Below are positions 7,424-20,621 of a stretch of 64,000 nt of DNA, in pieces. This DNA is from Gammaproteobacteria bacterium (lineage in GTDB: Bacteria > Pseudomonadota > Gammaproteobacteria > Pseudomonadales > Pseudohongiellaceae), in the NCBI GenBank assembly GCA_030654835.1, contig JAURWS010000015.1, positions 1-64,000 of the forward strand, in the 5' to 3' direction. The notes below the pieces were generated by a model. That model had not been told where the DNA came from, made no database searches, and saw only the letters and a program-made list of their open reading frames with translations. Position 1 is the stretch's first letter. Every line of letters starts with the position of its first letter. Both the position numbers and the translations under genes were made by a program.

Positions 7424-7515
7424 GGGTATTGCTCCTTTGGGGATTGAAGGGGGTTTATAACAGGGGACACTTGCCGGGAATGCGGAATACCGCTATGTTC
7501 CGGGGCAGTTGCCTT

Positions 7516-7548
7516 TATGAATCAGAAGGATATGAATCTGATTCATAT
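7516..7548. promoter_or_regulatory. triple TATGAATC operator-like site in the hsdM upstream region
   Basis: A perfect palindrome with one central base, ATATGAATC-T-GATTCATAT, spans 7530-7548. A third half site, TATGAATC, lies at 7516-7523 in direct orientation, 15 bp before the second; it forms an extended inverted repeat (TATGAATCAGA 7516-7526 with TCTGATTCATA 7537-7547). TATAAG at 7546-7551 could be a -10 box. The site lies between the divergent 152-aa gene and hsdM. Confidence 0.5.
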
Positions 7549-7611
7549 AAGATGGCGTTTTTCCCGCACTTATAAGAACAGGGGCACACAGCCAAGGAGC
7601 GATAGCCAGCC

Positions 7612-7704
7612 ATGCCAATACCCGATTTTCAGACCGTCATGCGTCCCGCACGCATTGCCTCGCGCATGAAGACCACACTCGCCCGCCCTGTTTACAGCCA
7701 CTGA
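7612..7704 (+). pseudogene. remnant of an Mrr-like restriction gene N-terminus (30 codons)
   Basis: ATG at 7612 opens a 30-codon frame beginning MPIPDFQTVMRP, which closely resembles the first residues of Mrr-type restriction endonucleases (winged-helix N-terminus). The similarity stops after about 12 residues and the frame ends at TGA 7702. AAGGAG lies upstream (7593-7598). I read it as the 5' stub of a deleted gene just before hsdM; a leader peptide is the alternative. Confidence 0.4.
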
Positions 7705-7732
7705 CACCCCGTACTTCAAAAGCGAAAACTCA

Positions 7733-9187
7733 ATGTTCGAACAAGCTTTCAAGAATATCGACGACATCCTGCACAAGGACGCTGGCTCTTCCAGCGAACT
7801 GGATTACACCGAACAAACCTCCTGGCTGTTGTTCCTGAAATATCTGGACGCGCTGGAGCAAGACAAGGCAATGGAGGCCGCGCTGGAAGGCAAGCCATAC
7901 AGCTTCATTCTGGACAAAGCCTACCAATGGGAAACTTGGGCCGCCCCCAAGACAGAGGACGGCAAGATCGATCACCACAAGGCGTATTCAGGGCCGGACC
8001 TGACCGAGTTCGTCGATCAGAAACTCTTCCCGTATCTGAAAGGGTTCAAGCAGCGCGCCACAGGGCCCAACACCATCGAATACAAAATTGGCGAAATCTT
8101 TGGCGAGATCAAGAACAAGATCCAGAGCGGCTACAACCTGCGCGAAGTGCTGGAGATCATCGACGGCCTGCGCTTTCGCTCGCAGACGGAGAAGCACGAG
8201 CTCTCACATCTGTACGAAGCCAAGATCAAGAACATGGGCAACGCCGGGCGCAACGGCGGCGAGTACTACACGCCGCGCCCCTTGATCCGGGCCATGGTCC
8301 AGGTGACGCAACCCAGGATCGGCCAGACAATCTATGACGGTGCGTGCGGCTCTGCAGGCTTCCTGTGCGAGGCGTTTGACTACCTGACCCAGCAGCCCAA
8401 CCTCACGACCAAAGACCTCAAGACGCTGCAAGAGAAAACCTTCTACGGCAAAGAGAAGAAATCCCTCGCCTATGTCATTGCCATCATGAACATGATTCTT
8501 CATGGCATCGAAGCGCCCAACATCATTCACACCAACACGCTGGCCGAAAACCTGTCGGACGTGCAAGACAAAGATCGCTTCGACATCGTGCTGGCCAACC
8601 CGCCATTCGGGGGAAAAGAGCGCAAGGAAGTGCAGCAGAACTTCCCCATCAAAACCGGCGAGACCGCGTTCCTGTTCCTGCAGCATTTCATCAAGTTGCT
8701 CAAGGCCGGTGGCCAGGGCGCGATCGTCATCAAGAACACGTTCCTTTCCAACACCGACAACGCATCAGTGTCCTTGCGCAAACTGCTGCTGGAGAACTGC
8801 AACCTGCACACCGTGCTCGATTGCCCCGGCGGCACGTTCATCGGGGCGGGCGTGAAGACCGTGGTGCTCTTCTTCGAGAAAGGCACCAGCACGCGCAAGG
8901 TGTGGTACTACCAGCTAGACCCCGGCCGCAACATGGGCAAGACCAATCCACTCAATGACGATGATCTTGCCGAATTCATCGAGCTGCAAAAGAGCAAAGG
9001 AGATTCGCTCAAGAGCTGGAGTGTGGATGTTGCGGACATTGACGCAAGCACCTTCGATCTGTCCGTGAAGAATCCGAATGGGGGCGAGGAAGTCACGCAT
9101 CGCAGTCCGCAGGAGATCATGGATGAGATCGCGGCGCTGGATGCGGAGAGTGCGAAAGTGCTGGCAGGGATAAGGGCATTGCTATGA
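7733..9187 (+). CDS. hsdM: type I restriction-modification DNA methyltransferase subunit HsdM
   Basis: 484 aa, typical length. The N-terminal helical HsdM_N domain (1-150) is followed by the N6-adenine methyltransferase domain: GEYYTPRPL (176-184), SAM-binding DGACGSAGF (202-210) and catalytic NPPF (289-292). It methylates adenines in the target chosen by HsdS and forms the M2S methylase and R2M2S restriction complexes. Its ATGA end overlaps a short downstream frame, and a diverged copy of its last 18 codons recurs at 9307-9361, just before hsdS. Confidence 0.96.
   Translation: MFEQAFKNIDDILHKDAGSSSELDYTEQTSWLLFLKYLDALEQDKAMEAALEGKPYSFILDKAYQWETWAAPKTEDGKIDHHKAYSGPDLTEFVDQKLFPYLKGFKQRATGPNTIEYKIGEIFGEIKNKIQSGYNLREVLEIIDGLRFRSQTEKHELSHLYEAKIKNMGNAGRNGGEYYTPRPLIRAMVQVTQPRIGQTIYDGACGSAGFLCEAFDYLTQQPNLTTKDLKTLQEKTFYGKEKKSLAYVIAIMNMILHGIEAPNIIHTNTLAENLSDVQDKDRFDIVLANPPFGGKERKEVQQNFPIKTGETAFLFLQHFIKLLKAGGQGAIVIKNTFLSNTDNASVSLRKLLLENCNLHTVLDCPGGTFIGAGVKTVVLFFEKGTSTRKVWYYQLDPGRNMGKTNPLNDDDLAEFIELQKSKGDSLKSWSVDVADIDASTFDLSVKNPNGGEEVTHRSPQEIMDEIAALDAESAKVLAGIRALL
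9133..9187 (+). repeat. hsdM 3'-end repeat, copy A
   Basis: This 55-bp stretch, the last 18 codons of hsdM including the terminal ATGA, recurs at 9307-9361 with about 43 of 55 positions identical by eye. Both copies encode a tail of the form ALxxESAxVL...GxxALL and both end in ATGA. Confidence 0.6.
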
Positions 9188-9342
9188 CTACGCACGCAAC
9201 AGACACAACGCTTGCGCTCATGGCCAATAAATGTGCCAAGGACTGGAGTGACAACCAACTACGGCATTGTCTCCGCGCTGCGGAGAGTTTTCCCGGCGGA
9301 CGATGGGGCGCTGAATTCGGAGAGTGCGGAAGTGCTGGGTAA
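9184..9342 (+). CDS. 52-codon frame inserted between hsdM and hsdS, probably a relic
   Basis: ATG at 9184 overlaps the hsdM stop (ATGA). The 52-residue product (MTTHATDTTLALMANKCAKD... ending FGECGSAG) matches no family I know. Its 3' part lies, in another frame, over the second copy of the hsdM tail, so the segment looks like the result of recombination or duplication at the hsdM-hsdS junction rather than a real gene. Translation is still possible because of the stop/start overlap. Confidence 0.25.
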   Translation: MTTHATDTTLALMANKCAKDWSDNQLRHCLRAAESFPGGRWGAEFGECGSAG

Positions 9343-9361
9343 CATTGGGGCGTTGTTATGA
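9307..9361 (+). repeat. hsdM 3'-end repeat, copy B (vestigial hsdM tail)
   Basis: Diverged copy of 9133-9187. In the hsdM-like frame it reads ALNSESAEVLGNIGALL and stops exactly over the hsdS start (ATGA), reproducing the usual coupled hsdM/hsdS junction. It seems to be the tail of a second hsdM allele whose body has been lost. Confidence 0.55.
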
Positions 9362-10575
9362 AAAATGGTTGGCAGAAAAAGAAGCTTGGCGAAGTCTGCA
9401 ACCTCATGACTGGTGGTACGCCGAGTAGGGGAAAACCAGAATATTTTGGCGGCAATATTAGATGGCTAGTCTCTGGTGACATTCATGCAAGAGAAATTTT
9501 TGACTGTGAGGGAAGAATTACCAATGAAGGAATGAATAATTCAAATGCAAAGTTGTTGCCAATAAACTCAGTAATGATTGCTCTTAATGGTCAAGGAAAA
9601 ACCAGGGGGTCTGTCGCATTGTTACGAACAGAAGCGACTTGTAACCAGTCGTTAGTTTGTATCATTCCGAAAGAACCAGCTAAATTGTTACCTGAGTTTT
9701 TGTATGCAAATCTTCATGGCCGTTATCAAGAAATTCGATATTTAACTAGCGACGCTGACAATGATCGTCGTGGTTTAAATATGCCGATCATTCGGGATAT
9801 TGATATTCCGATTGCCCCGATTGAAGAGCAGCAGCGAATCGTCAGCCTCCTCGACGAAGCGTTTGAGGGTATCGCCACCGCCAAGGCCAACGCCGAAAAG
9901 AACCTCCAGAACGCACGCGCTCTCTTCGAAAGCCATCTGCAATCTGTGTTTACTCATCGTGGGCCGGGTTGGGTAGATCGGCCTCTTGACGCAGTTTCGT
10001 CAATTCTTAATGGCCATGCCTTTAAGAGTACTGATTTCGACACTAAGGTGGGTACAAAGTGCATTAAGATTACGAATGTTGGCGTAAGAGAATTCGTCTG
10101 TAATTCCGATGGTTTTCTACCTGTTGGATTTGCTGAAGAGTATAAAAAAGTATCGGTCAAGGCGGGTAGCATTGTGATAGCACTGACCCGAACAATTATC
10201 TCTGGAGGGCTAAAGGTTTCTATTGTGCCTGAAGAATACAACGGCGCACTCCTAAACCAACGCGTTGCTGCATTAGTTGCAAACGAAACCATATTGAGTA
10301 GTGGATTTCTATTTTCTTATCTCTCGACTCAGTTAGTCGTTGAATATGTTAGAGAGAAAGTAAATACATTGATGCAACCGAACCTTTCAATCGCAGACCT
10401 TCGAGCTATGCCGATTCCTTTACCTCCTCCCGCAGAGCAGGAGGCATTTAACTCGAAAATTGAATTTCTTAGTGAAGAGACCCAGCGCATCACCCAAATA
10501 TATCAAAAGAAAATCGCCGCACTCGACGAACTGAAAAAAGCACTCCTGCACAAGGCGTTTAGTGGAGAGTTGTGA
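9358..10575 (+). CDS. hsdS: type I restriction-modification specificity subunit HsdS
   Basis: 405 aa. Two target-recognition domains (about 1-150 and 200-355) are each followed by a helical spacer: IAPIEEQQRIVSLLDEAFEGIATAKANAEKNLQNARALFES in outline (151-192) and PLPPPAEQEAFNSKIEFLSEE onward. The last residues LKKALLHKAFSGEL are the classic HsdS end. The subunit determines the bipartite DNA target for methylation and cleavage. Base composition in the recognition domains is more AT-rich than in hsdM and hsdR, as is usual for exchanged specificity modules. Confidence 0.95.
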   Translation: MKNGWQKKKLGEVCNLMTGGTPSRGKPEYFGGNIRWLVSGDIHAREIFDCEGRITNEGMNNSNAKLLPINSVMIALNGQGKTRGSVALLRTEATCNQSLVCIIPKEPAKLLPEFLYANLHGRYQEIRYLTSDADNDRRGLNMPIIRDIDIPIAPIEEQQRIVSLLDEAFEGIATAKANAEKNLQNARALFESHLQSVFTHRGPGWVDRPLDAVSSILNGHAFKSTDFDTKVGTKCIKITNVGVREFVCNSDGFLPVGFAEEYKKVSVKAGSIVIALTRTIISGGLKVSIVPEEYNGALLNQRVAALVANETILSSGFLFSYLSTQLVVEYVREKVNTLMQPNLSIADLRAMPIPLPPPAEQEAFNSKIEFLSEETQRITQIYQKKIAALDELKKALLHKAFSGEL

Positions 10576-10585
10576 GTATGAACAG

Positions 10586-12007
10586 ATGACCATCACACTT
10601 GAAACATTACAGCACTGGCTTACCGCACCGGCCGAAAGCGAGCACCTTGAATTCAAGGAGGCCAAGTCCGGCTATCAAAACGAAAAGTTACTGCGCTATT
10701 GCGCCGCATTGGCGAATGAAGGTGGTGGTTATCTGGTGTTGGGAGTGGGTGACAAGCTGCCGCGCCGCGTGGTCGGATCGCAAGCCTTTGTTGCAGCAAC
10801 CGAACTCAACCATATAAAAAAGGTGATTACTGACAAATTCCGCTTTCGAGTTGAAGTCATGGAACTGCAACATCCTGATGGGCGCGTACTCGTGTTCGCT
10901 ATTCCTTCAAGACCGATTGGCCATCCGATCGACATTGACGGCGCCTATCCGATGCGCTCAGGTGAAAGTCTGGTGAATATGACGCCTGACATGTTGAAGA
11001 GAATTTTTGCCGAAGGCCAGCCGGACTGGTTTGCACAAGCAGCCAAGAGCGATGCCGGTGCCGATGAAGTGATTGCCCTGCTTGATACGCAAACTTACTT
11101 TGATCTGGCCAAGTTACCGTTTCCCACTAGCCGTGATGGCGTATTGGAGCGCTTGTCGAATGAAAATCTGATTGCACGAACTTCGCGGGGCTGGTCGATC
11201 TCGAATCTGGCTGCCATTTTACTTGCCAAAAAGCTGGATGCTTTTTCACCAGAGTTGGCGCGAAAGGCCCCCCGCGTGGTGATCTATGAAGGCAAAGACA
11301 AGACTAATACCCGTGAAGACAAACCGGGCAATCGAGGTTATGCAGTTGGTTTTGAAAGCCTCGTCGATTTTGTGCATTCCGCCGCACCGCAAAATCGCAG
11401 CATCGAGGAGGTTGTGCGCGAAGAAGTAAAAATGTTTCCCAAGCAGGCATTGCGAGAACTGATTGCCAATGCGCTCGTGCATCAGGATTTTCTGGAAACG
11501 GGCGCATCCGTGATGATTGAGATGTACGCCGATCGTGTTGAAATCTCCAACCCTGGCAAACCGCCCATCAGCGTTGAGCGATTTATTGATGAGTATCGTT
11601 CACGCAATGAGCGGCTGGCAGATCTGATGCGCAGGCTCGGTATTTGTGAAGAAAAAGGCAGCGGCGTGGATAAGGTTATCAAGGCTGCCGAGGTTTTTCA
11701 GTTGCCTGCGCCGGATTTCCGGGTAGGAGCTATGCGCACTACGGCCATTCTGTTTGCTCATCAGGACTTTTCGTGCATGAGCAAGGCAGACAGGGTGCGG
11801 GCCTGCTACCAGCATTGTTGCCTGATGTATGTGAGCAACCAGCGCATGTCCAATCAGTCATTGCGGGCGCGGTTTGGAGTGCCTGAGTCCAAGGTAGCTA
11901 CGGTTTCTGTGGTGATTGCGGCCGCCAGGGAGGCCAATCTGATCAAGGCAGACGAATCTGAAACTACTTCGACACGCTATGCTCGCTACCTGCCTTTCTG
12001 GGCTTGA
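10586..12007 (+). CDS. AlbA_2 (Schlafen-like) ATP-binding protein in the RM locus
   Basis: 473 aa from ATG 10586 (MTITLETLQHW); an upstream GTG at 10562 lies inside hsdS and is less likely. The N-terminal AlbA_2/Schlafen domain shows EHLEFKEAKSGY and ANEGGGYLVLGVGD. The middle domain looks like HATPase_c_4 (ALRELIANALVHQDF, then VEISNPGKPP). The C-terminus (about 390-473) looks like a helix-turn-helix segment. Genes of this type are often found as extra genes inside type I RM and other defence loci. The role may be regulatory or a separate nucleic-acid-acting effector; neither is shown here. It sits between hsdS and hsdR on the same strand. Confidence 0.8.
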   Translation: MTITLETLQHWLTAPAESEHLEFKEAKSGYQNEKLLRYCAALANEGGGYLVLGVGDKLPRRVVGSQAFVAATELNHIKKVITDKFRFRVEVMELQHPDGRVLVFAIPSRPIGHPIDIDGAYPMRSGESLVNMTPDMLKRIFAEGQPDWFAQAAKSDAGADEVIALLDTQTYFDLAKLPFPTSRDGVLERLSNENLIARTSRGWSISNLAAILLAKKLDAFSPELARKAPRVVIYEGKDKTNTREDKPGNRGYAVGFESLVDFVHSAAPQNRSIEEVVREEVKMFPKQALRELIANALVHQDFLETGASVMIEMYADRVEISNPGKPPISVERFIDEYRSRNERLADLMRRLGICEEKGSGVDKVIKAAEVFQLPAPDFRVGAMRTTAILFAHQDFSCMSKADRVRACYQHCCLMYVSNQRMSNQSLRARFGVPESKVATVSVVIAAAREANLIKADESETTSTRYARYLPFWA

Positions 12008-12097
12008 TAGTGTTTTAGTGCAAACCGTTTGGATAATGCGACTCTCAGTTTTGTGGAAGCAAAATCAACAACTTAAGTGTTTTAACGCAAACCCGGA

Positions 12098-14449
12098 GTG
12101 CCAGTGAACGAAGCCGAAACCCGCGCTGAACACATAGACCCCGCCCTCAAGGCTGCGGGTTGGGGCGTCGTGGACGGCAGCAAGATTCGGCGCGAGAAGT
12201 CGGCCTATGAAATCACGCCCGGTCGCATTCAGGGCGGCGGCAAACGCAGCAAGGCCGAGATTGCCGACTATGTGTTGGAGTATCGCAACCTGAAGCTGGC
12301 AGTCATTGAAGCGAAGGCGTGGGACAAGCATTACACCGAGGGCGCAGCCCAAGCTAAACGCTACGCGCAGAAACTCAATGTGCGCTTCACCTATGCCACC
12401 AACGGCCAGCGCATTTACGGTATCGACATGGTCACGGGCCACGAGGGCGATGTTTCCGCGTATCCCACGCCGGATGAATTGTGGACCCTGACATTTGCCG
12501 AGCAGAACGAGTGGCGCGACCGCTTCGCCGCCATTCCGTTTGAAGACAAAGGCGGCACCTGGGGCGCTCGCTACTATCAGGACAACGCCATCAACGCGGT
12601 GCTGGAAGCCATCGCCGACAAGCGGGATCGCATTCTGCTCACGCTGGCCACCGGCACTGGCAAAACCTTCATCGCGTTTCAATTGGCGTGGAAGTTGTTT
12701 CACAGCCGCTGGAATCTGAGCGATTGGAGAAGCGGTGAAACACCGAGCCGGCACCCGCGCATACTGTTTTTGGCCGACCGCAACACGCTGGCAAATCAGG
12801 CCTACAACTCCTTCTCGGCGTTTCCTGAAGACGCGCTGATCCGCATCAATCCGGCCGACATTCGGAAGAAGGGCAAGGTGCCCAGAAATGGCAGCATCTT
12901 CTTCACCATCTTTCAGACCTTCATGAGCGGCCCGGGCGACACCGCCTATTTCGGGGAGTACCCCGAGGACTTCTTCGATTTCATCATCATCGACGAATGC
13001 CATCGCGGCGGCGCGAATGACGAAGGCACATGGCGCGCCATTCTGGAGTACTTTTCCCCGGCGGTGCAGCTGGGATTGACCGCCACGCCCAAGCGCAAGG
13101 GCAATGTGGACACCTATGAATACTTCGGCGAGCCCGTGTATGTGTACTCGCTGAAGGAAGGCATCAACGACGGCTTCCTCACCCCGTTCAAGGTCAAGCA
13201 GATTGCCACCACACTCGATGAGTATCTGCATGTGCCCGGCGACGGCGTGGTGGTGAAGGGCGAGGTGGAGCCCGGCAGGTTGTACGTGGAGTCTGACTTC
13301 AACCGCATCATCGAGATTCCTGAGCGCGAGGAATACCGGGTGAGGTTTTTCATGAACATGATCAACCAGAACGAGAAAACCATTGTCTTCTGCGCCACAC
13401 AGCAACACGCGCTGGATGTGCGCAACCTGATCAACAAGGTGAAGAAGTCCAGAGACGTGGACTACTGCGTGCGGGTCACCGCCGATGACGGCGAAGCGGG
13501 CGAACAGTTCCTCCGGGACTTTCAGGACAACGAACGTAGCATTCCCACAATCCTCACCACGTCGCAAAAGCTATCCACCGGCGTGGATGCCCGCAATGTT
13601 CGCAATATCGTGCTGATGCGCCCTGTCACCAACATGATCGAGTTCAAGCAGATCATCGGACGCGGCACGCGCCTGTTTGAAGGCAAGGAATACTTCACCG
13701 TTTACGACTTCGTGAAAGCCCACTACCTGTTCAGTGACCCGGCATGGGACGGCGAGCCGGAAGATCAAACCACCACGACAATTTCGGGCGAAGGCCCCGG
13801 GGTGGGCCAAGTCGGCGAGCCAAACCCGCCGCAGCCACCGAGGCAGCCACGCCCGGAGATCATAACCGTCACCCTTTCAGACGGCAGTGTGCGCAAGATC
13901 AAGAGCATGACAGCCACCATGTTCTGGGGCGCCGACGGCAAGCCAATGTCCGCCGCGCAGTTCCTGGAAAACCTGTTCGGCACCCTGCCGGAGTTCTTCA
14001 AGGATGAAGATGAACTGCGCACCCTCTGGAGCGCACCGAACACGCGCAAGGCACTATTGCTCGGCCTGGAGGAAAAGGGCTTCGGCAAAGAGATCATGTC
14101 CGAGATGCAGGCGATCATCGATGCGGAGAACAGCGACCTTTTCGACGTGCTTGCCTATGTGTCGCTGGCACTCGACCCGATTCCCCGCGCCGACAGAGCG
14201 GCGAAGGCCCGGCAGCAAGTGCACAACAGCTTCAATGCCAAACAGGAAGCCTTCATCGACTTCGTGCTGTCGCAGTATGTGAGCCAGGGCGTGGAGGAAC
14301 TGGATGCCGAGAAGATCACGCCGCTGCTGCGCCTCCGATACAACGACTCGCTGGCTGATGCTGTTGCGGACCTTGGTAGCCCCGAGAAGATCAGGGAAGT
14401 GTTTGTGGGGTTTCAGAGGTACTTGTATCAAGCGGGTGGCAGGGTTTAG
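12098..14449 (+). CDS. hsdR: type I restriction enzyme subunit HsdR (EcoEI-like)
   Basis: 783 aa. The order is an N-terminal nuclease domain with D57 and E71-A-K73 (IADYVLEYRNLKLAVIEAK in outline), then SF2 translocase motifs: ATGTGKT at 184-190, DECH at 299-302, GLTATPKR near 328 and the late motifs around TSQKLSTGVDA and QIIGRGTRL. A C-terminal EcoEI_R_C-type domain (about 600-783) follows. It translocates and cleaves unmodified DNA with HsdM and HsdS. The start is either GTG 12098 or GTG 12104; the latter is better spaced from a CGGAG. There is a ~90-bp gap from the AlbA_2 gene. Confidence 0.95.
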   Translation: MPVNEAETRAEHIDPALKAAGWGVVDGSKIRREKSAYEITPGRIQGGGKRSKAEIADYVLEYRNLKLAVIEAKAWDKHYTEGAAQAKRYAQKLNVRFTYATNGQRIYGIDMVTGHEGDVSAYPTPDELWTLTFAEQNEWRDRFAAIPFEDKGGTWGARYYQDNAINAVLEAIADKRDRILLTLATGTGKTFIAFQLAWKLFHSRWNLSDWRSGETPSRHPRILFLADRNTLANQAYNSFSAFPEDALIRINPADIRKKGKVPRNGSIFFTIFQTFMSGPGDTAYFGEYPEDFFDFIIIDECHRGGANDEGTWRAILEYFSPAVQLGLTATPKRKGNVDTYEYFGEPVYVYSLKEGINDGFLTPFKVKQIATTLDEYLHVPGDGVVVKGEVEPGRLYVESDFNRIIEIPEREEYRVRFFMNMINQNEKTIVFCATQQHALDVRNLINKVKKSRDVDYCVRVTADDGEAGEQFLRDFQDNERSIPTILTTSQKLSTGVDARNVRNIVLMRPVTNMIEFKQIIGRGTRLFEGKEYFTVYDFVKAHYLFSDPAWDGEPEDQTTTTISGEGPGVGQVGEPNPPQPPRQPRPEIITVTLSDGSVRKIKSMTATMFWGADGKPMSAAQFLENLFGTLPEFFKDEDELRTLWSAPNTRKALLLGLEEKGFGKEIMSEMQAIIDAENSDLFDVLAYVSLALDPIPRADRAAKARQQVHNSFNAKQEAFIDFVLSQYVSQGVEELDAEKITPLLRLRYNDSLADAVADLGSPEKIREVFVGFQRYLYQAGGRV

Positions 14450-14540: not shown

Positions 14541-15620
14541 ATGAAGGAAGGTATAAATCGACTGTTGTCCGGAGGTGCTCTTCTTACGGCCAAGCATATT
14601 TCCAAGGAACTCGGAATGGCGCGTAAAGAGGTGAACTCCTTCCTCCATCAAAGTCAGGACACTTATGAGAAAGATGCCGACTTTAGGTGGCGCTTGATTG
14701 ATGCCAAGCACGCGAGGATCGCTCTTCCAACCGGGTGGGTGACGGGTGAAGCGTTTGAGACGATCTTTCAGGAGGCGGGTGATATTCTGGATGGTCCTTG
14801 TCAGCGCATCGATTTCGTCTTCTCTCCCAAATGCAAGACGATGATCGACTGTATTGCGAGATTGCTTGCGGTAATGAACCAACTGGCCCATCGGGGCAAG
14901 CAGGTCACCGCTGATTTCACAGAAGCCGGTGGGACGCTGACATATCTCAATCGTGCAGGTTTTTTCGACCTGCTGGACCAAGGCGTAGCAGTCCTTCCGC
15001 GCCGCCCATCCGTGTCAGCCGCGAAGCGGTATCAAGGCAATAGCGGCAATCTTGTCGAGTTTGATCGAGTCGATCCCAAAGGGAGCAACAACGATCTTAT
15101 CGAGCAATTGACCAACAAATTTGTGCAGCACTCTACGACGGACCATCGGGTGGCGGCCCTGACTGTGTTTGGAGAACTCATTGGCAATGTATTCGAGCAC
15201 AGTGAATCACCACTGGCAGGATTCGCTGGATTGCAAAAGTACGGCGGTCATCGCAATCACATTCAGACAGTCGTCTCCGATAGCGGAATAGGTATCGCTA
15301 GAACACTGCGGCCTGGACTAAAGGCGCATTACCCCGCGCTGTACAAGACGTTCGGGGAGCCGTCGCTGGAATCGGACATCGGTCTGGTTACGGCGGCCAT
15401 GAGCAAGGGAGAGATAAGCCGATATGGCGATGGGCGCGGCCTTGGCTTCAAAAGTAGCCGCGAACAGGCTATAAAGTTCAATGCGGAGATCTCCGTTAGG
15501 CAGCAGGAGTTTTGCTTAAAGTTTAAATATTGCGAGGGCGAGCTGATTAATGTTGAAAGGCGGAGCGATCTCTCAAACTTGATGGGAACCCACATTTGCT
15601 TCGACTTTTATCTTGATTGA
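14541..15620 (+). CDS. GHKL/HATPase-type ATP-binding protein, first of a pair
   Basis: 359 aa. The N-terminal ~40 residues look like a small helix-turn-helix (LTAKHISKELGMARKEVNSFL). A middle domain (about 75-150) follows. The C-terminal half has Bergerat-fold ATPase features: N-box-like ELIGNVFEHSE, G1-type VSDSGIGIA, and a glycine-rich YGDGRGLGF near the end, with no histidine-phosphotransfer motif. AAGGAAG lies just before the ATG. It is followed by a STAS-like/DUF4325-type gene, a pairing seen widely in variable regions and reminiscent of anti-sigma/anti-anti-sigma partners; the function here is not known. Confidence 0.7.
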   Translation: MKEGINRLLSGGALLTAKHISKELGMARKEVNSFLHQSQDTYEKDADFRWRLIDAKHARIALPTGWVTGEAFETIFQEAGDILDGPCQRIDFVFSPKCKTMIDCIARLLAVMNQLAHRGKQVTADFTEAGGTLTYLNRAGFFDLLDQGVAVLPRRPSVSAAKRYQGNSGNLVEFDRVDPKGSNNDLIEQLTNKFVQHSTTDHRVAALTVFGELIGNVFEHSESPLAGFAGLQKYGGHRNHIQTVVSDSGIGIARTLRPGLKAHYPALYKTFGEPSLESDIGLVTAAMSKGEISRYGDGRGLGFKSSREQAIKFNAEISVRQQEFCLKFKYCEGELINVERRSDLSNLMGTHICFDFYLD

Positions 15621-15648
15621 ATCTTCTTAAGGCCATATAGTTAACCAG

Positions 15649-16206
15649 ATGAAGCAGGATCATATGATAATTTCCCTTTCCGCCGTCACTGACGAGAAAG
15701 ACTTTTTATCCGGCAATGTACTGGGCAAGAAAGTCTTTCAAGCTCTACAGCTTCTCACAGACTCGCATCCGGAAGTGGCCATCTTTGGGATTTCGTTGAA
15801 GGGCATTTTGGCCACTGATGCGTCTTTCCCAAGAGAGAGCGTTATTTCTCTGGCTAAGCTGCTATGCGGAGAAAAGGGCTTTTTCCTGAAAGACTTTGTT
15901 TCCGATGACTTGATTGACAACTGGAATTACGCGGCGAAGGCAAAGAACCAGGCGGTCATTGTTCTTAAAGGATCGAAGGACTACGCCGTTATCGGACCGG
16001 AGCTCAGCACAGGAAACAAAGAGCTACTCGACTTCGTCATGAAAGAAAGAGTGGTTACCACATCGAAGGTCGCAAAGAGATTTGACGTTTCGGCTCAGAA
16101 CGCCAGCGCGAAAATGAAAAAGCTGCATTCCATGGGGCTGGTACTCGGCTCAAAGGAAACGGCAGAATCGGGGGGGTTGGAGTTCGTATATCAAGCAATC
16201 CGATAA
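15649..16206 (+). CDS. STAS-like (DUF4325-type) protein with C-terminal winged helix
   Basis: 185 aa from ATG 15649. ATG 15664 (MIISLSAVTDEKDF) has a better upstream AGGA and may be the real start. The N-terminal part, with FLSGNVLGKKVFQAL and the following alternating strands, fits the STAS-like DUF4325 fold. The C-terminus (about 125-180: VTTSKVAKRFDVSAQNASAKMKKL) is a winged-helix domain. It follows the HATPase gene by 28 bp and is closed by a terminator-like hairpin, so the two genes form their own unit, probably a switch in which the HATPase protein controls the DNA-binding partner (inference). Confidence 0.65.
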   Translation: MKQDHMIISLSAVTDEKDFLSGNVLGKKVFQALQLLTDSHPEVAIFGISLKGILATDASFPRESVISLAKLLCGEKGFFLKDFVSDDLIDNWNYAAKAKNQAVIVLKGSKDYAVIGPELSTGNKELLDFVMKERVVTTSKVAKRFDVSAQNASAKMKKLHSMGLVLGSKETAESGGLEFVYQAIR

Positions 16207-16249
16207 AACGGCTTGCGTTAACCAGAATGTGAGGCTACATTAGCGACAT

Positions 16250-16267
16250 GGCGGAAACGCCTTTTTT
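16250..16267 (+). terminator. probable rho-independent terminator after the STAS-like gene
   Basis: GGCG (16250-16253), loop GAAA, CGCC (16258-16261), then six T (16262-16267). The stem is short but all G/C with a GNRA-type tetraloop. It separates the HATPase/STAS pair from the ubiquitin-like operon. Confidence 0.55.
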
Positions 16268-16275
16268 ATCGGAGT

Positions 16276-16293
16276 CTGATTAATCAGGTTAAC
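16276..16293. promoter_or_regulatory. palindrome upstream of the ubiquitin-like operon
   Basis: CTGATTAATCAG (16276-16287) is a perfect 12-bp palindrome 27 bp before the first ATG. It overlaps GGTTAAC (16287-16293), which is the inverse of GTTAACC at 16217-16223. It is a candidate operator for the operon; no regulator is identified. Confidence 0.35.
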
Positions 16294-16314
16294 TTTAACA
16301 GAAACGGAGAGATA

Positions 16315-16488
16315 ATGGCTACCAACCCCCCGAAAGGCGATGGTCATCGTAATGGCTCGGTCCGCAGCAGATCCCAGACGCAAACATCGTCCGGGCACTA
16401 CGTCAAACGCAATGCCGATACCGGGCGCTTCATGGATGTGAAGACATCCGACAAGAGCCCCTTCAAAGGCGTCAGAAAAGAGAAATAG
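16315..16488 (+). CDS. 57-aa basic protein, first gene of the ubiquitin-like operon
   Basis: ATG 16315 to TAG 16486, with an excellent GGAGA four bases before the start. The product (MATNPPKGDGHRNGSVRSRS...) is Lys/Arg-rich. Its second half holds SGHYVKRNADTGRFMDVK and a C-terminal FKGVRKEK, a short conserved-looking pattern that I associate with small proteins encoded beside such operons. It is followed by the ubiquitin-like gene after 8 bp, so it is co-transcribed. The role is unknown; a substrate or adaptor of the conjugation pathway is possible. Confidence 0.7.
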   Translation: MATNPPKGDGHRNGSVRSRSQTQTSSGHYVKRNADTGRFMDVKTSDKSPFKGVRKEK

Positions 16489-16496
16489 GAGGCACC

Positions 16497-16748
16497 GTGA
16501 AAGATCACAACTCGAAACCGAATTCGCCAGAGCTTTTTATCGACAATGAACGCTATGACTGGCACGAGGACACCATTACAGGTGCGCAATTGCGTCAGCT
16601 AGGGGCATTGCCGGACGATGTCCAAATCTTCTGGAAGAATCCCGGTCATCCGGATCTTGAGGTCAAGAACGACACTGTTATCAACCTCAAAAATCACCCC
16701 GGCCCTGATCGCTTTTCAACCCAGTCAGTTGGTTCCCAGGCGGGGTGA
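16497..16748 (+). CDS. ubiquitin-like protein (multiubiquitin-domain type, single repeat)
   Basis: 83 aa from GTG 16497, preceded by a perfect AGGAGG. One beta-grasp repeat of the prokaryotic multiubiquitin type is visible: LFIDNERYDWHEDTITGAQL, then RQLGALPDD, VQIFWKNPG and INLKNHPGPDRF. The chain ends in ...QSVGSQAG, i.e. with a C-terminal Gly, as needed for adenylation by an E1 enzyme. It sits directly before E2-like and JAB-E1 genes, so it is the likely modifier that is activated and conjugated. Only four bases separate its stop from the next start. Confidence 0.8.
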   Translation: MKDHNSKPNSPELFIDNERYDWHEDTITGAQLRQLGALPDDVQIFWKNPGHPDLEVKNDTVINLKNHPGPDRFSTQSVGSQAG

Positions 16749-16752
16749 GAAA

Positions 16753-17157
16753 ATGGCGTTGCTTCTGGACACAGACTACGAGGAGTTGAATGCGTGCGGG
16801 CTCGAATTCGTCGAAGACGAGCCTAACCGCTTCCTCGTCTTGTCGAACTACCAACTCCCTGACGACATGTATCGTCAGAAGAGCTGCGACATTCTGATTC
16901 TCGTTCCCCAGGCCTATAACCGGGATGGCAATGACATGTTCTGGACGCATCCACGTCTTGTCCGTACCGATGGCAAACAGATTCCAGCAACGAATGAGTC
17001 AGGGGGTGGTGATAACCGGGTATTCAACGGGACAGAATTCTGCCGTTGGTCTCGGCACTGGCAGAGTGGCCCCTCTGTCTGGAGGCCAGGGAGGGACAAT
17101 ATTGTCACGATCTTGCGCCGTATTGCGTGGGCCGTCGGGAACCCTGACGCGCAATGA
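16753..17157 (+). CDS. E2/UBC-like conjugating protein (prokaryotic E2 type)
   Basis: 134 aa from ATG 16753; the frame is open further upstream, but that part overlaps the ubiquitin-like gene. The features are those of prokaryotic E2 families linked to multiubiquitin genes: a beta-sheet core (FLVLSNYQLP, CDILILVPQAY), W64-T-H-P67 in DMFWTHPRL, and a C-terminal WSRHW-x(6)-WRPGRDNIVTILRRI helix. Three Cys are present (15, 45, 97); C97 lies just before the WSRHW segment, but whether any of them is catalytic cannot be decided by eye. Its stop overlaps the JAB-E1 start (ATGA), which implies coupled synthesis. Confidence 0.78.
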   Translation: MALLLDTDYEELNACGLEFVEDEPNRFLVLSNYQLPDDMYRQKSCDILILVPQAYNRDGNDMFWTHPRLVRTDGKQIPATNESGGGDNRVFNGTEFCRWSRHWQSGPSVWRPGRDNIVTILRRIAWAVGNPDAQ

Positions 17158-18602
17158 ACAACGGACGCATTACATTACTGAACTCCCAGCATGAGACGCT
17201 GACATCATTTCTGGACTCTCATCCTGATGGGCATGAGAAAGCGGCTGTTGTGTTGTTTCGCAGACTGCATATTCCGGTTGAAGGGCTAGAAGATTCCGAC
17301 CGCTATATCGCTAAGGAGATCATTCCATTTGAAGAGTCATGGGTGAGCGGTAGTTCACCGGTGTATATCGCTTTCAAACTCGCATCTTTGCGAAACCTGT
17401 TCAGAAGATGTGAAGAGGAGGGGCTGGTTTTTGGGTTTGTGCATAACCACCCGGGCGGACCAACGGAGTTTTCAACCGTTGATGATGAAAACGAAATCAC
17501 CCTGTTAACAGCGCTTCGGAACCGAAACGGAAACAACATCACCTTTGTAGCGATGCTGTGGGCAAATGGGAAGTGGGTAGCCCGCACACGTCGTGCGAAT
17601 GCTCCTGAAGTTGCTATCCCGGTAAGGCATACGCTCGTGCTGTCAAACCGTCTTCATCTCTATGGATATCGGGAGAGCAGCGCAGATCATTCGGAAATGC
17701 AGGCTCGACAAGCTGCTGCTTTTGGTCGACCCTTCGTCGATATGCTCCAGTCGCTTCGCGTTGCTGTTGTTGGTTGTGGCGGCACCGGAAGTCCCTTGGC
17801 CACACTGCTTGCGCGTTCCGGTATCGGCGAACTCGTTCAGATTGACAAAGACACACTTGCGAAAAGCAACCTAAACCGAGTCAGAGGCCTGAGGGCAGCA
17901 GATGTCGGCGAGAATAAGGCGCGCGCACTTAAGGAATTTATCGACAGTATCGGTTTGTCGGTTAAGGTCGCTGCCTTCGAGTCTGAAGTTGACAATGATC
18001 CTGTGGCACTTGATGCCCTTGCCAGCTGCGATGTTGTCTTTGGATGTACTGATGATTACGCTGGTCGTGGTGTAATGAGTACTGCGCTTTATGTCTATGC
18101 GCAGCTTCTAATCGATGTTGGGCTCGGTGGCCGAGTTCACGGTGACCTTGATGGGCAGCCAGTCCTTCGCTACCACTTTGGTCGAATCAGCAGTATTTTG
18201 CCTGAGGCAGGACAGTGCCTGTTTTGTCAGGATGTTGTTCGCGATGTTTGGATTCGTACGCAACAGGCGCGTCGGGAAAATCCAGAGATTACCGAAGAAG
18301 AGCTCAAAGAAAGATACCTTGAAGATGGAGGTACCGGCGCTCCTGGCGTTGGTCCGTTCACGAGCGCGACAGCCGATTTTGCGATAGCAACGTTGTTTGA
18401 TCTGATAAAGCCGTTTCGGCGATTTCCACTAGCGTTGCGCAAGGACATGTACATCGTCGACTTCGTAACAATGGAAATCCGCAGTTACCAGGTCGAAGAG
18501 AAGCCTGATTGCCCGTATTGCCGTCAGCGCGAATTTCTTCTAATGAAAGAGGTGTATCGATTGAATCAACCATATTTAGGCAAGCGCGATGAATTTACTT
18601 AA
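17154..18602 (+). CDS. JAB (JAMM) deubiquitinase-like / ThiF-E1 fusion
   Basis: 482 aa. The N-terminal ~150 residues are a JAB/JAMM metalloprotease with E28, H97-N-H99-P and S107-x-x-D110, so all metal and catalytic positions are present. Residues ~195-480 are a ThiF/MoeB/E1 adenylation domain: GCGGTGS (207-213), the D/N/R set in QIDKDTLAKSNLNRV (from 230), GCTDD (297-301), and two zinc Cys pairs, C355-x-x-C358 and C453-x-x-C456. One protein therefore carries both the activating and the cleaving activity. It is part of a tightly overlapping operon with the E2-like and DUF6527 genes. Confidence 0.92.
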   Translation: MNNGRITLLNSQHETLTSFLDSHPDGHEKAAVVLFRRLHIPVEGLEDSDRYIAKEIIPFEESWVSGSSPVYIAFKLASLRNLFRRCEEEGLVFGFVHNHPGGPTEFSTVDDENEITLLTALRNRNGNNITFVAMLWANGKWVARTRRANAPEVAIPVRHTLVLSNRLHLYGYRESSADHSEMQARQAAAFGRPFVDMLQSLRVAVVGCGGTGSPLATLLARSGIGELVQIDKDTLAKSNLNRVRGLRAADVGENKARALKEFIDSIGLSVKVAAFESEVDNDPVALDALASCDVVFGCTDDYAGRGVMSTALYVYAQLLIDVGLGGRVHGDLDGQPVLRYHFGRISSILPEAGQCLFCQDVVRDVWIRTQQARRENPEITEEELKERYLEDGGTGAPGVGPFTSATADFAIATLFDLIKPFRRFPLALRKDMYIVDFVTMEIRSYQVEEKPDCPYCRQREFLLMKEVYRLNQPYLGKRDEFT

Positions 18603-18987
18603 CTGGATTGGTAAGTGGTTTGGCAGCCTGTTTCGCACCGATTCTGACCAACCTCAAGGGTCGGTAACGCCAGTTCTCTTTCCTGAGGTCAAGGTCGTCT
18701 ACGCTGCTCCACGGAACGAGCAGATTTTGTTAGGGTTGCTCTACTGTGTGATGTCCGCGGGCAAGCCGAAGTGGTCATTGTTTCGATGTCCTTGCGGTTG
18801 CGGGGATGTCATCACATTATCCCTACAAGCTGCTCATAGCCCTCATTGGAGATTAACGAATTCAGATTCGGGGCGACCAACTCTGTATCCGTCGATATGG
18901 AGAGACAAGGGTTGCCTCAGTCACTTTTGGCTCAGGGATGGTCAGATTACTTGGTGCTTCGACACGGGAAGCCATCCATCGCAGTAG
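18589..18987 (+). CDS. DUF6527-type zinc protein, last gene of the ubiquitin-like operon
   Basis: 132 aa. Its start lies inside the end of the JAB-E1 gene (14-bp overlap). A Cys cluster C67-P-C69-G-C71 and a second set C109-x-x-H112 near SHFWLRDGQITWC suggest a zinc site. Between them LQAAHSPHWRLT and TLYPSIWRDKGC follow the pattern I know from DUF6527 proteins found with bacterial E1/E2/JAB operons. The N-terminus (LLNWIGKWFGSLF) is amphipathic and could touch membrane. The function is unknown. Confidence 0.75.
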   Translation: MNLLNWIGKWFGSLFRTDSDQPQGSVTPVLFPEVKVVYAAPRNEQILLGLLYCVMSAGKPKWSLFRCPCGCGDVITLSLQAAHSPHWRLTNSDSGRPTLYPSIWRDKGCLSHFWLRDGQITWCFDTGSHPSQ

Positions 18988-19164: not shown

Positions 19165-19260
19165 CAGATGAAACGTAAGAGGTTTTTCGAAGGAAATCTG
19201 GGGAATTTGGTGGGCCCACCTGGACTTGAACCAGGGACCAACGGATTATGAGTCCGCTGC
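19165..19260 (-). repeat. attachment-site repeat: partial copy of the tRNA 3' part (left copy)
   Basis: 96 bp matching 20323-20418 with about five mismatches, all in the part outside the tRNA gene. The copy carries the tRNA 3' end including CCA, the T-arm, variable loop and anticodon arm (19208-19260), then diverges. Such a copy is the usual footprint of an element integrated at a tRNA 3' end. Confidence 0.8.
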
Positions 19261-19314
19261 CGACATCAACGCAGCATTCGATTGGGCGGACAGCTTAAGC
19301 CAGCAAAGCCACAA

Positions 19315-19416: not shown

Positions 19417-19818
19417 TCAAGCCGTCCTGATCTCATCAATCAGGTTGGGGTGCCGATCCAGTAACTTGAGCAGTTTGATCAAGGCCACTGGCGGTTTGGT
19501 TTTGCCGTTTTCGTAGCGCGAAAAGGCATTGATGCCACCGCCAAAAATTTCAGCTGCCTGACGCTGGTCAAGGTTGAGCTTTTTGCGCACCGTGACGATA
19601 AAAGCCGGATCAACAATCGCCGCATTGACTTGTTTGGAAAAAGCGCTCATTTCACGCATAACCCGGTTGGTTTCACCTGCGTCAAGAATAGATTCTGCAC
19701 AGGCTGGGCAGAAATCGCCCGTCACTGCCGCGACGACAGTTGTCTCGCCCTTGTAGGTGTAAGGCAGGTTGCGCGTGTCGTGGATCAGTTCCGCTGCACC
19801 ACAAACCGGACATTTCAT
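19417..19818 (-). CDS. mqsA: MqsA antitoxin (zinc and HTH domains)
   Basis: 133 aa from ATG 19818, preceded by AGGAG; the longer frame upstream belongs to the toxin region. The N-terminal zinc domain has C3-x-x-C6 and C37-x-x-C40, and the C-terminal half is a helix-turn-helix (LDQRQAAEIFGGGINAFSRYE split over the recognition helix, then NGKTKPP). MqsA binds MqsR and represses the operon. The order toxin-then-antitoxin with 2 bp between the genes is the same as in E. coli mqsRA. The pair lies inside the small element between the two tRNA repeats. Confidence 0.92.
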   Translation of the reverse strand: MKCPVCGAAELIHDTRNLPYTYKGETTVVAAVTGDFCPACAESILDAGETNRVMREMSAFSKQVNAAIVDPAFIVTVRKKLNLDQRQAAEIFGGGINAFSRYENGKTKPPVALIKLLKLLDRHPNLIDEIRTA

Positions 19819-19820
19819 CG

Positions 19821-20117
19821 TTATAGCTCCTTGAAGGACACAATCAGTAAATCGTCCACAACCGTCAGCTTCAGGTACACACCACCCGACTGAGAGGCAG
19901 GGCGGTATACGTCCTGCCAAAGTGTATGATCAGCGTAGGTAGTCATGCTCTTGTAGAAATCCGCCGATGTCATCGCCATCACTGTGTTGAGCATATCTGA
20001 GAGGGTCAGCCCCAACTCACTCGCGCCGGCACGTGCAGCGTGCGTGGTACGAACTTTCCCCGCTGTTGCAAGCGCCTGAACCACTGCCAACTTGTAGTGT
20101 GGCGTCATTTTCTCCAT
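19821..20117 (-). CDS. mqsR: MqsR toxin (mRNA interferase)
   Basis: 98 aa, normal length. The sequence MEKMTPHYKLAVVQALA, SALGLT-like SELGLTLSDMLNTV and the C-terminal GGVYLKLTVVDDLLIVSFKEL region fit MqsR, a RelE-fold ribosome-independent mRNA interferase specific for GCU-type sites in the known members. Y56-F54-type aromatic residues and K-rich positions are preserved as far as can be seen. Start ATG 20117, with a second ATG three codons later. Its stop is 2 bp from the mqsA start. Confidence 0.9.
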   Translation of the reverse strand: MEKMTPHYKLAVVQALATAGKVRTTHAARAGASELGLTLSDMLNTVMAMTSADFYKSMTTYADHTLWQDVYRPASQSGGVYLKLTVVDDLLIVSFKEL

Positions 20118-20322: not shown

Positions 20323-20442
<120 letters not shown>

Positions 20443-20621
20443 TTTGCACTGCGAAGGCCGCGAATTATATGCGGGTGCCGCCAATCTTGCCAGCGCTAAG
20501 TCGGCGGCCCCCGGGCACGCTTGACACCCCTCGCGGCTCCCGTCCATAGTGGCGCCCGACCGACTCTCCCGGCCAAAACCATCGTCCCAATCGCCCGACC
20601 AACTGAGTGAAGCTGCCGCGC

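Follow-up and report, generated by a model that had tools for sequence, protein, structure and literature searches.

A Bub operon, probably inducible by DNA damage, behind a portable small-protein gene in a Pseudohongiellaceae genome

The window, that is, the whole stretch of 64,000 nucleotides analysed here (positions 1 to 64,000 of contig JAURWS010000015.1, assembly GCA_030654835.1), carries five close-packed genes at positions 16315-18987. The open reading frames were checked on the sequence, and each of the five genes had the expected coordinates. The spacings given in a preliminary description of this DNA (8 bp, 4 bp, an ATGA overlap, and a 14-bp overlap) were all verified. Two further genes, capK and capS, lie directly upstream; they had been overlooked in that description and belong to the same unit. 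A type I restriction-modification (R-M) locus at 7733..14449 on the forward strand precedes capKS. RES-Xre and mqsRA are also in the region, and a 111-nt repeat including part of a tRNA-Met gene lies near the operon. The features are as follows.

7733-9187, forward strand: HsdM (Pfam)
9358-10575, forward strand: HsdS (Pfam)
10562-12007, forward strand: AlbA_2/RecG-like protein (Pfam)
12098-14449, forward strand: HsdR (Pfam)
14541..15620, forward strand: CapK-type kinase, 359 aa, GHKL ATPase domain (Pfam HATPase_c, 2.9e-6; identity to capKS-locus proteins)
15621..15648, forward strand: capK-capS spacer with TTAA-N10-TTAA at 15627-15644, a candidate CapS operator (sequence motif)
15649..16206, forward strand: CapS-type repressor, 185 aa, C-terminal winged-helix region (51% identity to plasmid CapS)
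16207..16314, forward strand: putative operon promoter region containing four TTAA half-sites, of which three lie within 16280-16298 (sequence motif)
16315..16488, forward strand: 57-aa basic protein (PADLOC PDC-S38 family), encoded at the head of the operon
16497..16748, forward strand: ubiquitin-like protein (Ubl, BubA-like), 83 aa, GTG start (Pfam Multi_ubiq, PDB 9d59)
16753..17157, forward strand: E2-like protein (BubB-like), 134 aa (Pfam Prok-E2_E, Citrobacter BubB)
17154..18602, forward strand: fused JAB deubiquitinase and E1 (BubCD-like), 482 aa (PDB BubCD, ThiF)
18589..18987, forward strand: DUF6527 protein, 132 aa (Pfam DUF6527)

The Pfam and PDB matches supported the claimed set of Ubl-conjugation genes. 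The Ubl matched the multi-ubiquitin protein of PDB 9d59 at 2.8e-8 and Pfam Multi_ubiq at 1.9e-4 (22 bits, below the 24.5 cut-off); it has only one domain, unlike a multi-ubiquitin, and its C-terminus ...SQAG leaves the Gly exposed. The E2-like protein matched Pfam Prok-E2_E at 9.3e-34 and the Citrobacter BubB in the PDB at 1.3e-9. Given these relatives with solved structures, a beta-grasp fold is predicted for the Ubl and a UBC fold for the E2. The JAB-E1 protein, a single polypeptide that combines a JAB region with one ThiF domain, matched the Citrobacter BubCD in the PDB at 2.1e-25, Pfam ThiF at 1.7e-33, and Prok-JAB at 0.007, the last being below its cut-off. All the JAMM residues named earlier (E28, H97, H99, S107, and D110) were present, and they were invariant in 11 aligned JAB-E1 proteins. 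As for the claimed E1 motifs, the nucleotide motif GCGGTGS was found as described; both CxxC pairs were present here, yet in only 7 of the 11 aligned proteins. DUF6527 was also recognised by Pfam (9.1e-24).

An identical gene order, i.e., hsdR, CapK, CapS, 57 aa, Ubl, E2, JAB-E1, and DUF6527, was found in another Gammaproteobacteria MAG (L003, QNFP01000027.1), which alone was returned by the search of genome contigs. Protein identity between the window and L003 across the eight genes was 45-86%, and no dN/dS ratio is given since dS was saturated for all eight. Because of the Pfam matches and the same order in L003, the gene set should not be due to chance. The sequences of the last four genes (Ubl, E2, JAB-E1, and DUF6527) identify them almost certainly as a Bub (bacterial ubiquitination-like) operon. 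The operon is therefore a further example of an already described type, not a new system.

The Bub system of Citrobacter (PDB 9ea4, 9ea5, 9ea8, 9eae, and 9eav) shares with the window the fused JAB-E1 with JAMM and an E2 with RWSRH. However, the Citrobacter BubCD is without the first CxxC pair, and the Citrobacter E2 has Gln at the position of Cys97. The relationship is distant, the window JAB-E1 being 25% identical to the JAB-E1 of a related Enterobacter plasmid. In an alignment of seven E2 proteins, the motif W99-S100-R101-H102 was invariant and no Cys was conserved, Cys97 being common to the window and L003 only. Judging from this single alignment, the E2 nucleophile is at least as likely to be Ser100 of WSRH as a cysteine. 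The Ubl of L003 ends in ...SQAGA and would need trimming, whereas the window Ubl already ends in Gly. In the bacterial ISG15-like (Bil) operons, Ubl, E1, E2, and JAB genes also stand together, but the E1, with two adenylation domains, and the JAB protein are separate. Membership in Bil was ruled out by this architecture, the window having JAB and E1 in one chain.

In the DUF6527 protein, C67, C71, C109, and H112 were invariant in an alignment of 10 proteins and likely form a metal site. No convincing PDB relative was found (best E 0.87), and a structure predicted from four sequences reached a pLDDT of 40. Among viral contigs, no relative was found with a single-protein query and one weak match with an alignment query; a distant viral-contig protein kept C67, C109, and H112 in a 4-row alignment. 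DUF6527 was present in 14 of 19 JAB-E1 loci (4/5 class genomes, 5/8 phylum genomes, and 5/6 plasmids, a count that leaves out L003 and viral contigs), and it is a usual companion of JAB-E1. The eight phylum genomes came from a second sample of 18, in which the window's own genome had already been counted and nine had an E1-type stretch only; in those eight, E2 was detected in six and Ubl in two. E2, JAB-E1, and DUF6527 occurred together in L003, L078-L080, L170-L174, L245-L249, and L179. JAB-E1 was without a detected DUF6527 in L081, L175, and L250-L252, and L250 and L251 were also without a detected E2. The order Ubl-E2-E1-DUF6527 was seen on Synechocystis plasmids and, with an IS element inside, on Celeribacter plasmids. 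The literature search returned no paper linking DUF6527 with bacterial ubiquitin-like systems, and PMC13373217 was the only one on Bub among papers with two Bub terms.

The CapK-type protein was 45.7% identical over 99% of its length to a Vibrio gigantis protein and 39.8% identical to Enterobacter-type plasmid proteins. An N-terminal HTH was suggested by an HTH_Mga match below the Pfam cut-off only. At E 1e-15, CapK was found in 1 of 274 class genomes, namely the window's own. CapS shared 51% identity (90/177) with its counterpart in a plasmid-borne capKS-Bub locus (L173), and its Ser59 aligned with Ser54 of the Enterobacter plasmid CapS; in Pfam, its winged-helix matches were all below the cut-offs and STAS was not recognised. 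In the passages of PMC13373217 considered here, CapK and CapS are described as a DNA-damage-activated kinase/repressor pair, and R-M genes lie upstream of capKS in 88 of 443 loci. The order of capK and capS and their position after the R-M locus agree with this published arrangement. In the capKS-Bub loci of the Enterobacter/Citrobacter IncHI2A plasmids (L173 and L174) and of E. roggenkampii (PMC13373217), CapK and CapS are followed by Bub, as here. On L173 and L174, capS directly precedes a long multi-ubiquitin gene, whereas the window has the 57-aa gene in between, a one-domain Ubl, and a separate E2.

The half-site of CapS is given in those passages of PMC13373217 as TTAA, in palindromes whose halves are 1 bp apart ahead of capS and 10 bp apart ahead of the operon. 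In the window, the region 16207-16314 contains four TTAA compared to 0.11 expected from the whole-window frequency (P 5e-6). Compared to the region's own composition, the expectation was 0.7-1.0, and 0.35-1.5% of random versions reached four. The excess is thus weak evidence because P is only 0.004-0.015 against the region's own composition. The promoter half-sites are separated by 5 bp and 2 bp, and the outer ones by 11 bp, compared to the published 1 or 10. In addition, the 10-bp-spaced pair of the window sits before capS, whereas the published wide pair precedes the downstream operon. Control of the operon by CapKS is still considered likely, slightly less so than before the TTAA count was compared with the region's own composition.

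The first gene of the operon encodes a protein that is basic, as previously claimed (13 Lys+Arg vs 5 Asp+Glu). It matched PADLOC PDLC05010 (PDC-S38) at 5.7e-30 over 57/57 positions, a single-gene phage defence candidate that exists there as a name only, without an assigned function; Pfam and NCBIfam gave no match. The literature search found no paper naming PDC-S38, and a small leader gene goes unmentioned in the consulted passages of PMC9122588, PMC9122601, and PMC13373217; nor did any of the 10 titles listed out of 14 deal with such a gene. Standing first, 8 bp before Ubl in the window and 10 bp in L003, and with Lys at 7 of its 57 residues, this protein could be thought a dedicated part of the conjugation, such as a substrate, an E3-like adaptor, or an E2 cofactor. 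However, besides L003, only one of the 13 sampled genomes that encode a full-length JAB-E1 had the gene, and the other 12 lacked it; Bub genes were absent from the loci read in which it accompanies CBASS, YegP, or other genes. None of the six Bub plasmids opened was among the 38 tblastn-positive plasmid records, and no 57-aa match was obtained in the two related enterobacterial plasmids opened or, with a 57-aa HMM in six frames, in any of 22 further loci carrying JAB-E1, Bub, or DUF6527 genes. The 1/13 genomes and the 0/22 loci rechecked rule out the 57-aa gene as a Bub component, which leaves a dedicated conjugation role very improbable; the 57-aa protein is, with high probability, a module separate from Bub. 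The type with the 57-aa protein and DUF6527 had been called less described, but the Bub operon has published relatives, DUF6527 is a usual companion in it, and the 57-aa gene is outside the Bub set. On plasmid p1 of Vibrio gigantis (L021), R-M, CapK, CapS, and a 57-aa gene (86% identical) follow each other as in the window, but the payload is of the CBASS type (SAVED and nucleotidyltransferase genes) instead of Bub.

The 57-aa gene lies directly after a putatively regulated promoter, and the conserved entity might then be a DNA or RNA element (an operator or a leader) of which the 57-aa frame is a by-product. This is contradicted by the codon-position counts: among 1,050 pairs at 60-70% identity, codon positions 1, 2, and 3 differed in 0.28, 0.24, and 0.64 of codons, i.e., the third more than twice as often as the first and second, and different codons were used for 63% of the residues that were identical (leaving aside Met and Trp; 60-70% protein identity). 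Such an element is extremely improbable; the 57-aa gene evolves as a protein under purifying selection. The protein was 86% identical between the window and L003, and the proteins of the seven neighbour genes were 45-70% identical. Its predicted fold is a small beta sheet (pLDDT 73.6). Damaged copies exist: those of G201 and a Methylomonas plasmid were truncated, that of G009 was frameshifted, and that of G055 was without a recognised start, and the gene can thus be lost.

A CapKS, WYL, or XRE-M78 regulator was found within 1.5 kb of the 57-aa gene in 11 of 17 sampled genomes (excluding G226, G250, G257, G293, and G461, whose weak matches are to a remote '...YVKIDR...' relative or to some other divergent form). 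The same was true of 14 of the 20 plasmids that were opened. Among 49 distinct viral contigs, some of which have flanks shorter than 1.5 kb, only 3 had such a regulator. Such a regulator was absent in 6/17 genomes, 6/20 plasmids, 46/49 viral contigs, and all three phage records opened out of 16 with the gene. The 20 plasmids, from 38 records with the gene, are not 20 independent events since they include near-copies (H28/H31, H11/H12/H14, and H16/H18/H20/H22). WYL neighbours numbered 7 compared to 0.04 expected, a count resting on an independent Pfam search, as the regulator HMMs drew in part on these very loci. The genes of L059, L060, L064, and L066 were assigned by Pfam, and the XRE-M78 of G055 (L061) by a local HMM alone. 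Searching from the regulators, we found the 57-aa gene in only 3 of the 30 loci, all read, that accompanied the 37 WYL matches to a CapW alignment (18/30 belong to a recA-linked WYL group), and after capKS on 3 Vibrio records of 39 CapK plasmid records, many of them near-copies. The gene was absent from all 14 control genomes, and the Vibrio gene searched by DNA gave no E. coli match.

Downstream of the 57-aa gene were CBASS, Bub, YegP, annotated PD-(D/E)XK, or other genes. The 57-aa gene might be a selfish or independent passenger (a toxin, an antitoxin, or a mobile-element gene) that favours damage-inducible promoters and has no immune part. It was indeed found beside ars genes on Hymenobacter plasmids, in temperate phages, behind a WYL gene on small plasmids without an annotated immune gene, and in chromosomes without a recognised partner. 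Nevertheless, it keeps the first, same-strand place before CBASS (2 bp in L021 and 143 bp in L022), Bub, and YegP (4 bp in L065) genes in several lineages, and the passenger explanation is rather unlikely. Since the gene precedes CBASS, YegP, annotated PD-(D/E)XK, and other genes beside three unrelated kinds of regulator, we speculated that the 57-aa protein acts alone, outside the ubiquitin chemistry, on a target common to many bacteria. This common cellular target is a tentative proposal, since Foldseek of the model against the PDB gave 0 of 762 matches at E <= 0.001. Still more tentatively, PDC-S38 may be a shared first-response element that heads DNA-damage-induced immune operons, whatever their regulator (CapKS, CapW-type WYL, or CapHP-type XRE-M78) or effector (CBASS, Bub, or others), and acts on one conserved cellular or phage target.

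Taken together, the locus is probably a Bub operon that is induced by DNA damage and has a portable small protein encoded at its head. By analogy with the published pair, CapS would keep the promoter ahead of the 57-aa gene closed. Single-stranded DNA, whether it arises through damage, an attacking phage, or the restriction system upstream, would activate CapK, which would phosphorylate CapS at Ser59, and the operon would open. From what their families do, the E1 half would adenylate the Gly end of the Ubl and hand the Ubl to the E2, the E2 would attach it to target proteins, and the JAB half would remove it; the DUF6527 protein probably binds metal in an accessory role. Conjugation of the Ubl to proteins by this operon is predicted with high probability.

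The operon could also serve a DNA-damage or general stress response and not an anti-phage one, its island position coming from shared mobility and regulators. The CapKS authors, in the passages of PMC13373217 (2026) considered here, state that phage protection by Bub is not demonstrated and leave a DNA-damage or stress role open, and what the regulator responds to is DNA damage rather than the phage itself. However, the defence-type region described earlier was confirmed: the operon sits among type I R-M, RES-Xre, and mqsRA, near the tRNA-Met repeat, and a role in defence may be inferred. Moreover, 90 plasmid records match more than 80% of the JAB-E1 length. The relatives Bil and Type II CBASS are known to defend against phages. 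The stress response is possible but the less probable explanation.

As a clear example of capKS-Bub, the operon combines an E2 lacking a conserved Cys with a one-domain Ubl already ending in Gly, and these features are useful for testing Bub conjugation. The most interesting part is the portable 57-aa protein, which heads immune genes that differ both in effector and in regulator family. Should any such system be weakened when it is deleted, several defence systems would have this component in common. The gene tends to be skipped by annotation because it is so small, and no feature was annotated under the 57-aa match in H16, H17, H20, H21, H23, and H24.

Other small proteins were seen in the same slot of two Bub loci, a DUF2188 protein (L081) and a 49-64-aa 'TSKKAAS' protein (L079), and YegP/DUF1508 directly followed the 57-aa gene or capKS (L065 and L085). 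Since such positions are occupied by these proteins, a general leader slot may exist for small helpers.

The five tightly packed genes claimed in the preliminary description at 16315-18987 on the + strand were confirmed on the sequence, with their lengths, spacings and overlaps, and the five-gene operon is real. The matches of their products to known families were as follows.

Family matches of the five products, in gene order, all on the + strand
First gene, +: 57-aa protein; PADLOC phage defence candidate PDC-S38 over its full length (5.7e-30)
Second gene, +: ubiquitin-like protein (Ubl); Pfam Multi_ubiq, weak (1.9e-4; 22 bits, cut-off 24.5)
Third gene, +: E2; Pfam Prok-E2_E, firm (9.3e-34)
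Fourth gene, +: JAB-E1; Pfam ThiF (1.7e-33), with a JAB match below cut-off
Fifth gene, +: DUF6527 protein; Pfam DUF6527, firm (9.1e-24)

No match for the 57-aa protein was found in Pfam or NCBIfam. Among solved structures, the best relatives of the JAB-E1, the E2 and the Ubl were Citrobacter BubCD (2.1e-25, residues 5-426), Citrobacter BubB (1.3e-9) and the multi-ubiquitin protein 9d59 (2.8e-8), respectively. Since these are the closest relatives, we identified the operon, by sequence similarity, as a bacterial ubiquitination-like (Bub) operon, and it is thus a further example of an already known system. The Bub family was defined by Gong et al. (2025) and by Ye et al. (2026), as cited in PMC13373217.

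The residues expected for conjugation and removal were then compared among homologues. All five JAMM residues of the JAB-E1 were present, as had been proposed, and were invariant across 11 aligned JAB-E1 proteins, as were, in the E1 part, G207, G212, S213, D231 and R242. None of the JAB-E1 cysteines was invariant in these 11 proteins; C298, in the FGCTDD stretch, was kept in 10 of them and the two CxxC pairs in 7. Likewise, no cysteine was invariant in seven aligned E2 proteins, Cys97 being shared by the window and L003 (QNFP01000027.1, a gammaproteobacterial MAG contig) only, and the motif W99-S100-R101-H102 was invariant. An oxyester intermediate has reportedly been described for Bub, and the alignment is compatible with Ser100 as the putative E2 nucleophile. 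The DUF6527 protein displayed four invariant metal-ligand-like residues (C67, C71, C109 and H112; 10 aligned proteins). The Ubl already ends in Gly in the window and in Gly-Ala in L003; therefore, the JAB domain may serve for removal only in the window, and for trimming as well in L003.

Upstream of the five genes lie CapK (14541-15620) and CapS (15649-16206), a kinase/repressor pair. CapK shared 45.7% identity with a Vibrio gigantis protein that has the same gene arrangement and 39.8% with an Enterobacter-type plasmid protein. CapS shared 51% identity with its counterpart on an IncHI2A capKS-Bub plasmid (L173), and its Ser59 aligned with Ser54 of that protein. According to PMC13373217, CapS binds TTAA half-sites and represses the downstream operon, and CapK phosphorylates a conserved serine of CapS (Ser54 in E. 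roggenkampii) when ssDNA is present. In the same paper, capKS stands ahead of Bub operons in 231 of 443 loci and downstream of an R-M system in 88 of the 443. All elements of this arrangement are present in the window, in the order type I R-M, capK, capS and operon. Four TTAA sites were present in the operon promoter region, compared to 0.11 expected from the TTAA frequency of the window and 0.7-1.0 expected from the more AT-rich composition of the region itself; random versions of that composition carried at least four in 0.35% (shuffles) to 1.5% (Markov) of cases. However, the spacings were 5 and 2 bp (outer, 11), which differ from the 1 or 10 of the published CapS sites, and a TTAA-N10-TTAA site was located before capS and not before the operon. 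Therefore, the operon promoter region contains only a candidate, though plausible, CapS operator.

To what extent the five genes belong together was judged from their co-occurrence. Gene content and order from hsdR to DUF6527 in L003 were identical to those in the window, which favours the set as claimed; nevertheless, judging from 13 sampled genomes, the 57-aa gene is no part of the Bub set. All 13 encode a full-length JAB-E1 (class, 5 of 274; phylum, 8 further among 398, partial matches dropped), and the window's was the only one with the 57-aa gene. None of the six Bub plasmids opened was among the 38 plasmid records carrying the 57-aa gene, and L178 and L179, two Bub-carrying viral contigs, also lacked the gene. 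A role of the 57-aa protein as a Bub part was thus rejected (1/13 genomes, 0/6 plasmids, 0/2 viral contigs). Both viral contigs encode Bub JAB-E1 and E2, L179 additionally Ubl and DUF6527, and an XRE-M78-like gene was close to the Bub genes in L178 and, weakly, in L179. A third viral contig, in which no Bub E1 or E2 was detected, has a DUF6527-like stretch (L177, 4938-5207).

What is surprising in the operon is its portable 57-aa protein. Proper members were found in 17 genomes (7 of 274, and 10 more among 398), and a regulator lay within 1.5 kb of the gene in 11 of them (CapKS in 1, WYL in 7, XRE-M78 in 3). The seven WYL neighbours compare with 0.04 expected for 17 genes, given a density of 35 WYL genes per 67.6 Mb. 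Among the 20 plasmid records opened, 14 had a regulator nearby (CapKS in 3, WYL in 11). The labels CapW-type for the WYL genes and CapHP-type for the XRE-M78 genes refer to the domain only, and DNA-damage sensing by such regulators is taken from the papers on CapW, CapHP and CapKS. The genes behind the 57-aa gene varied among the opened loci: CBASS-type genes (L021, on Vibrio gigantis plasmid p1, and L022), Bub (the window and L003), genes annotated PD-(D/E)XK (L023, L026), YegP (L065, L085), YdjM (L060), DUF1883 (L027) or, in L082, a hypothetical gene followed by a type I R-M locus, with nothing obvious in L084 and L086. An XRE-M78 gene with a short gene that by eye looks like PIN was observed divergent from the 57-aa gene in L059 (8298-9837), L064 (6336-7878) and L061 (~6264-8253), and divergent from a Bub-like E1 in L252 (6368-7990).

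A regulator was absent within reach in 6 of the 17 genomes and 6 of the 20 plasmids, in 46 of 49 distinct viral contigs (several with short flanks, and searched with HMMs from proteobacteria), and in all three opened of 16 phage records. From the regulator side, the CapW alignment led to 30 loci that were read; the 57-aa gene was present in only 3 of them, and 18 of the 30 formed a recA-linked WYL group. Therefore, seen from the 57-aa gene, the association is strong in genomes and plasmids of proteobacteria but weak in viral contigs, and it is weak when seen from the regulators. In the 18 loci (L148-L164, L166), what we take to be a RecA-like N-terminal motif was near the WYL gene, in 16 of them in a divergent reading frame; a WYL regulator apparently stands beside recA in many genomes of the class. 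Three Hymenobacter plasmids had near-identical 57-aa copies, two of them adjoining arsenic genes, and none of 14 control genomes had the gene. Damaged copies were truncated (genome G201 and a Methylomonas plasmid) or frameshifted (genome G009), and the start of the copy in genome G055 was not recognised. In two phages, one staphylococcal and one streptococcal (L043, 4001-4171; L044, 3001-3171), the 57-aa frame runs opposite to both flanking genes, and in phi575 an annotated opposite-strand gene covers most of it.

Codon positions 1, 2 and 3 differed in 0.28, 0.24 and 0.64 of codons (1,050 pairs at 60-70% identity, 63 distinct members). Because third positions differ far more, the 57-aa gene is judged, from its codon pattern, to encode a true protein. 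Thirteen residues were invariant in 24 aligned members, and between the window and L003 the protein was 86% identical, compared with 45-70% for seven neighbours. An AlphaFold model gave four short strands (16-23, 29-33, 39-42 and 53-55; pLDDT 73.6, pTM 0.53). Neither the fold nor the sequence (best E 0.32) had a significant relative in the PDB. Such conservation beside unrelated effectors and regulators suggests that its partner may be common to many bacteria or phages. No paper on the protein was found in the literature searched, mostly the main texts of freely available papers. A distant short relative of it (...NPRTGHYVKIDRTEGKI...) was observed in two copies on contig C14 of the window genome (L076, 292-465 and 4099-4266), one of them near HTH-like genes.

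Two of the other four Bub loci of the class held a different small gene in the place of the 57-aa gene, flanked by divergent M78-type genes and by the Ubl gene.

Small genes in that place
L081, 10409-10705: DUF2188 protein (Pfam 1.4e-23), next to an M78 gene in divergent orientation
L079, 4152-4346: 49-64-aa TSKKAAS protein, no Pfam match, beside divergent XRE and M78 genes

Moreover, YegP follows capKS in 57 published loci (PMC13373217). Taken together, these cases make it a fair hypothesis that such loci have a "leader slot" in which small helper proteins are encoded.

Downstream of the operon, the following features were located.

Features beyond the operon
19165-19275 and 20323-20433: 111-nt direct repeat, 89%
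19417-19884: mqsA, between the repeat copies
19821-20117: mqsR, between the repeat copies
20366-20442, -: tRNA-Met gene, mostly covered by one repeat copy

The repeat region resembles an integration site terminating the island. Elsewhere in the window, the type I R-M genes hsdS and hsdR are separated by a gene for an AlbA_2 and RecG-C-terminal protein (10562-12007), and a gene pair for an Xre-like antitoxin and a RES-domain toxin (5523-6613) lies on the other side of the R-M locus. The reading frame at 20607-22328 has two head-to-tail 39-nt copies (90%) at its end (22245-22322).
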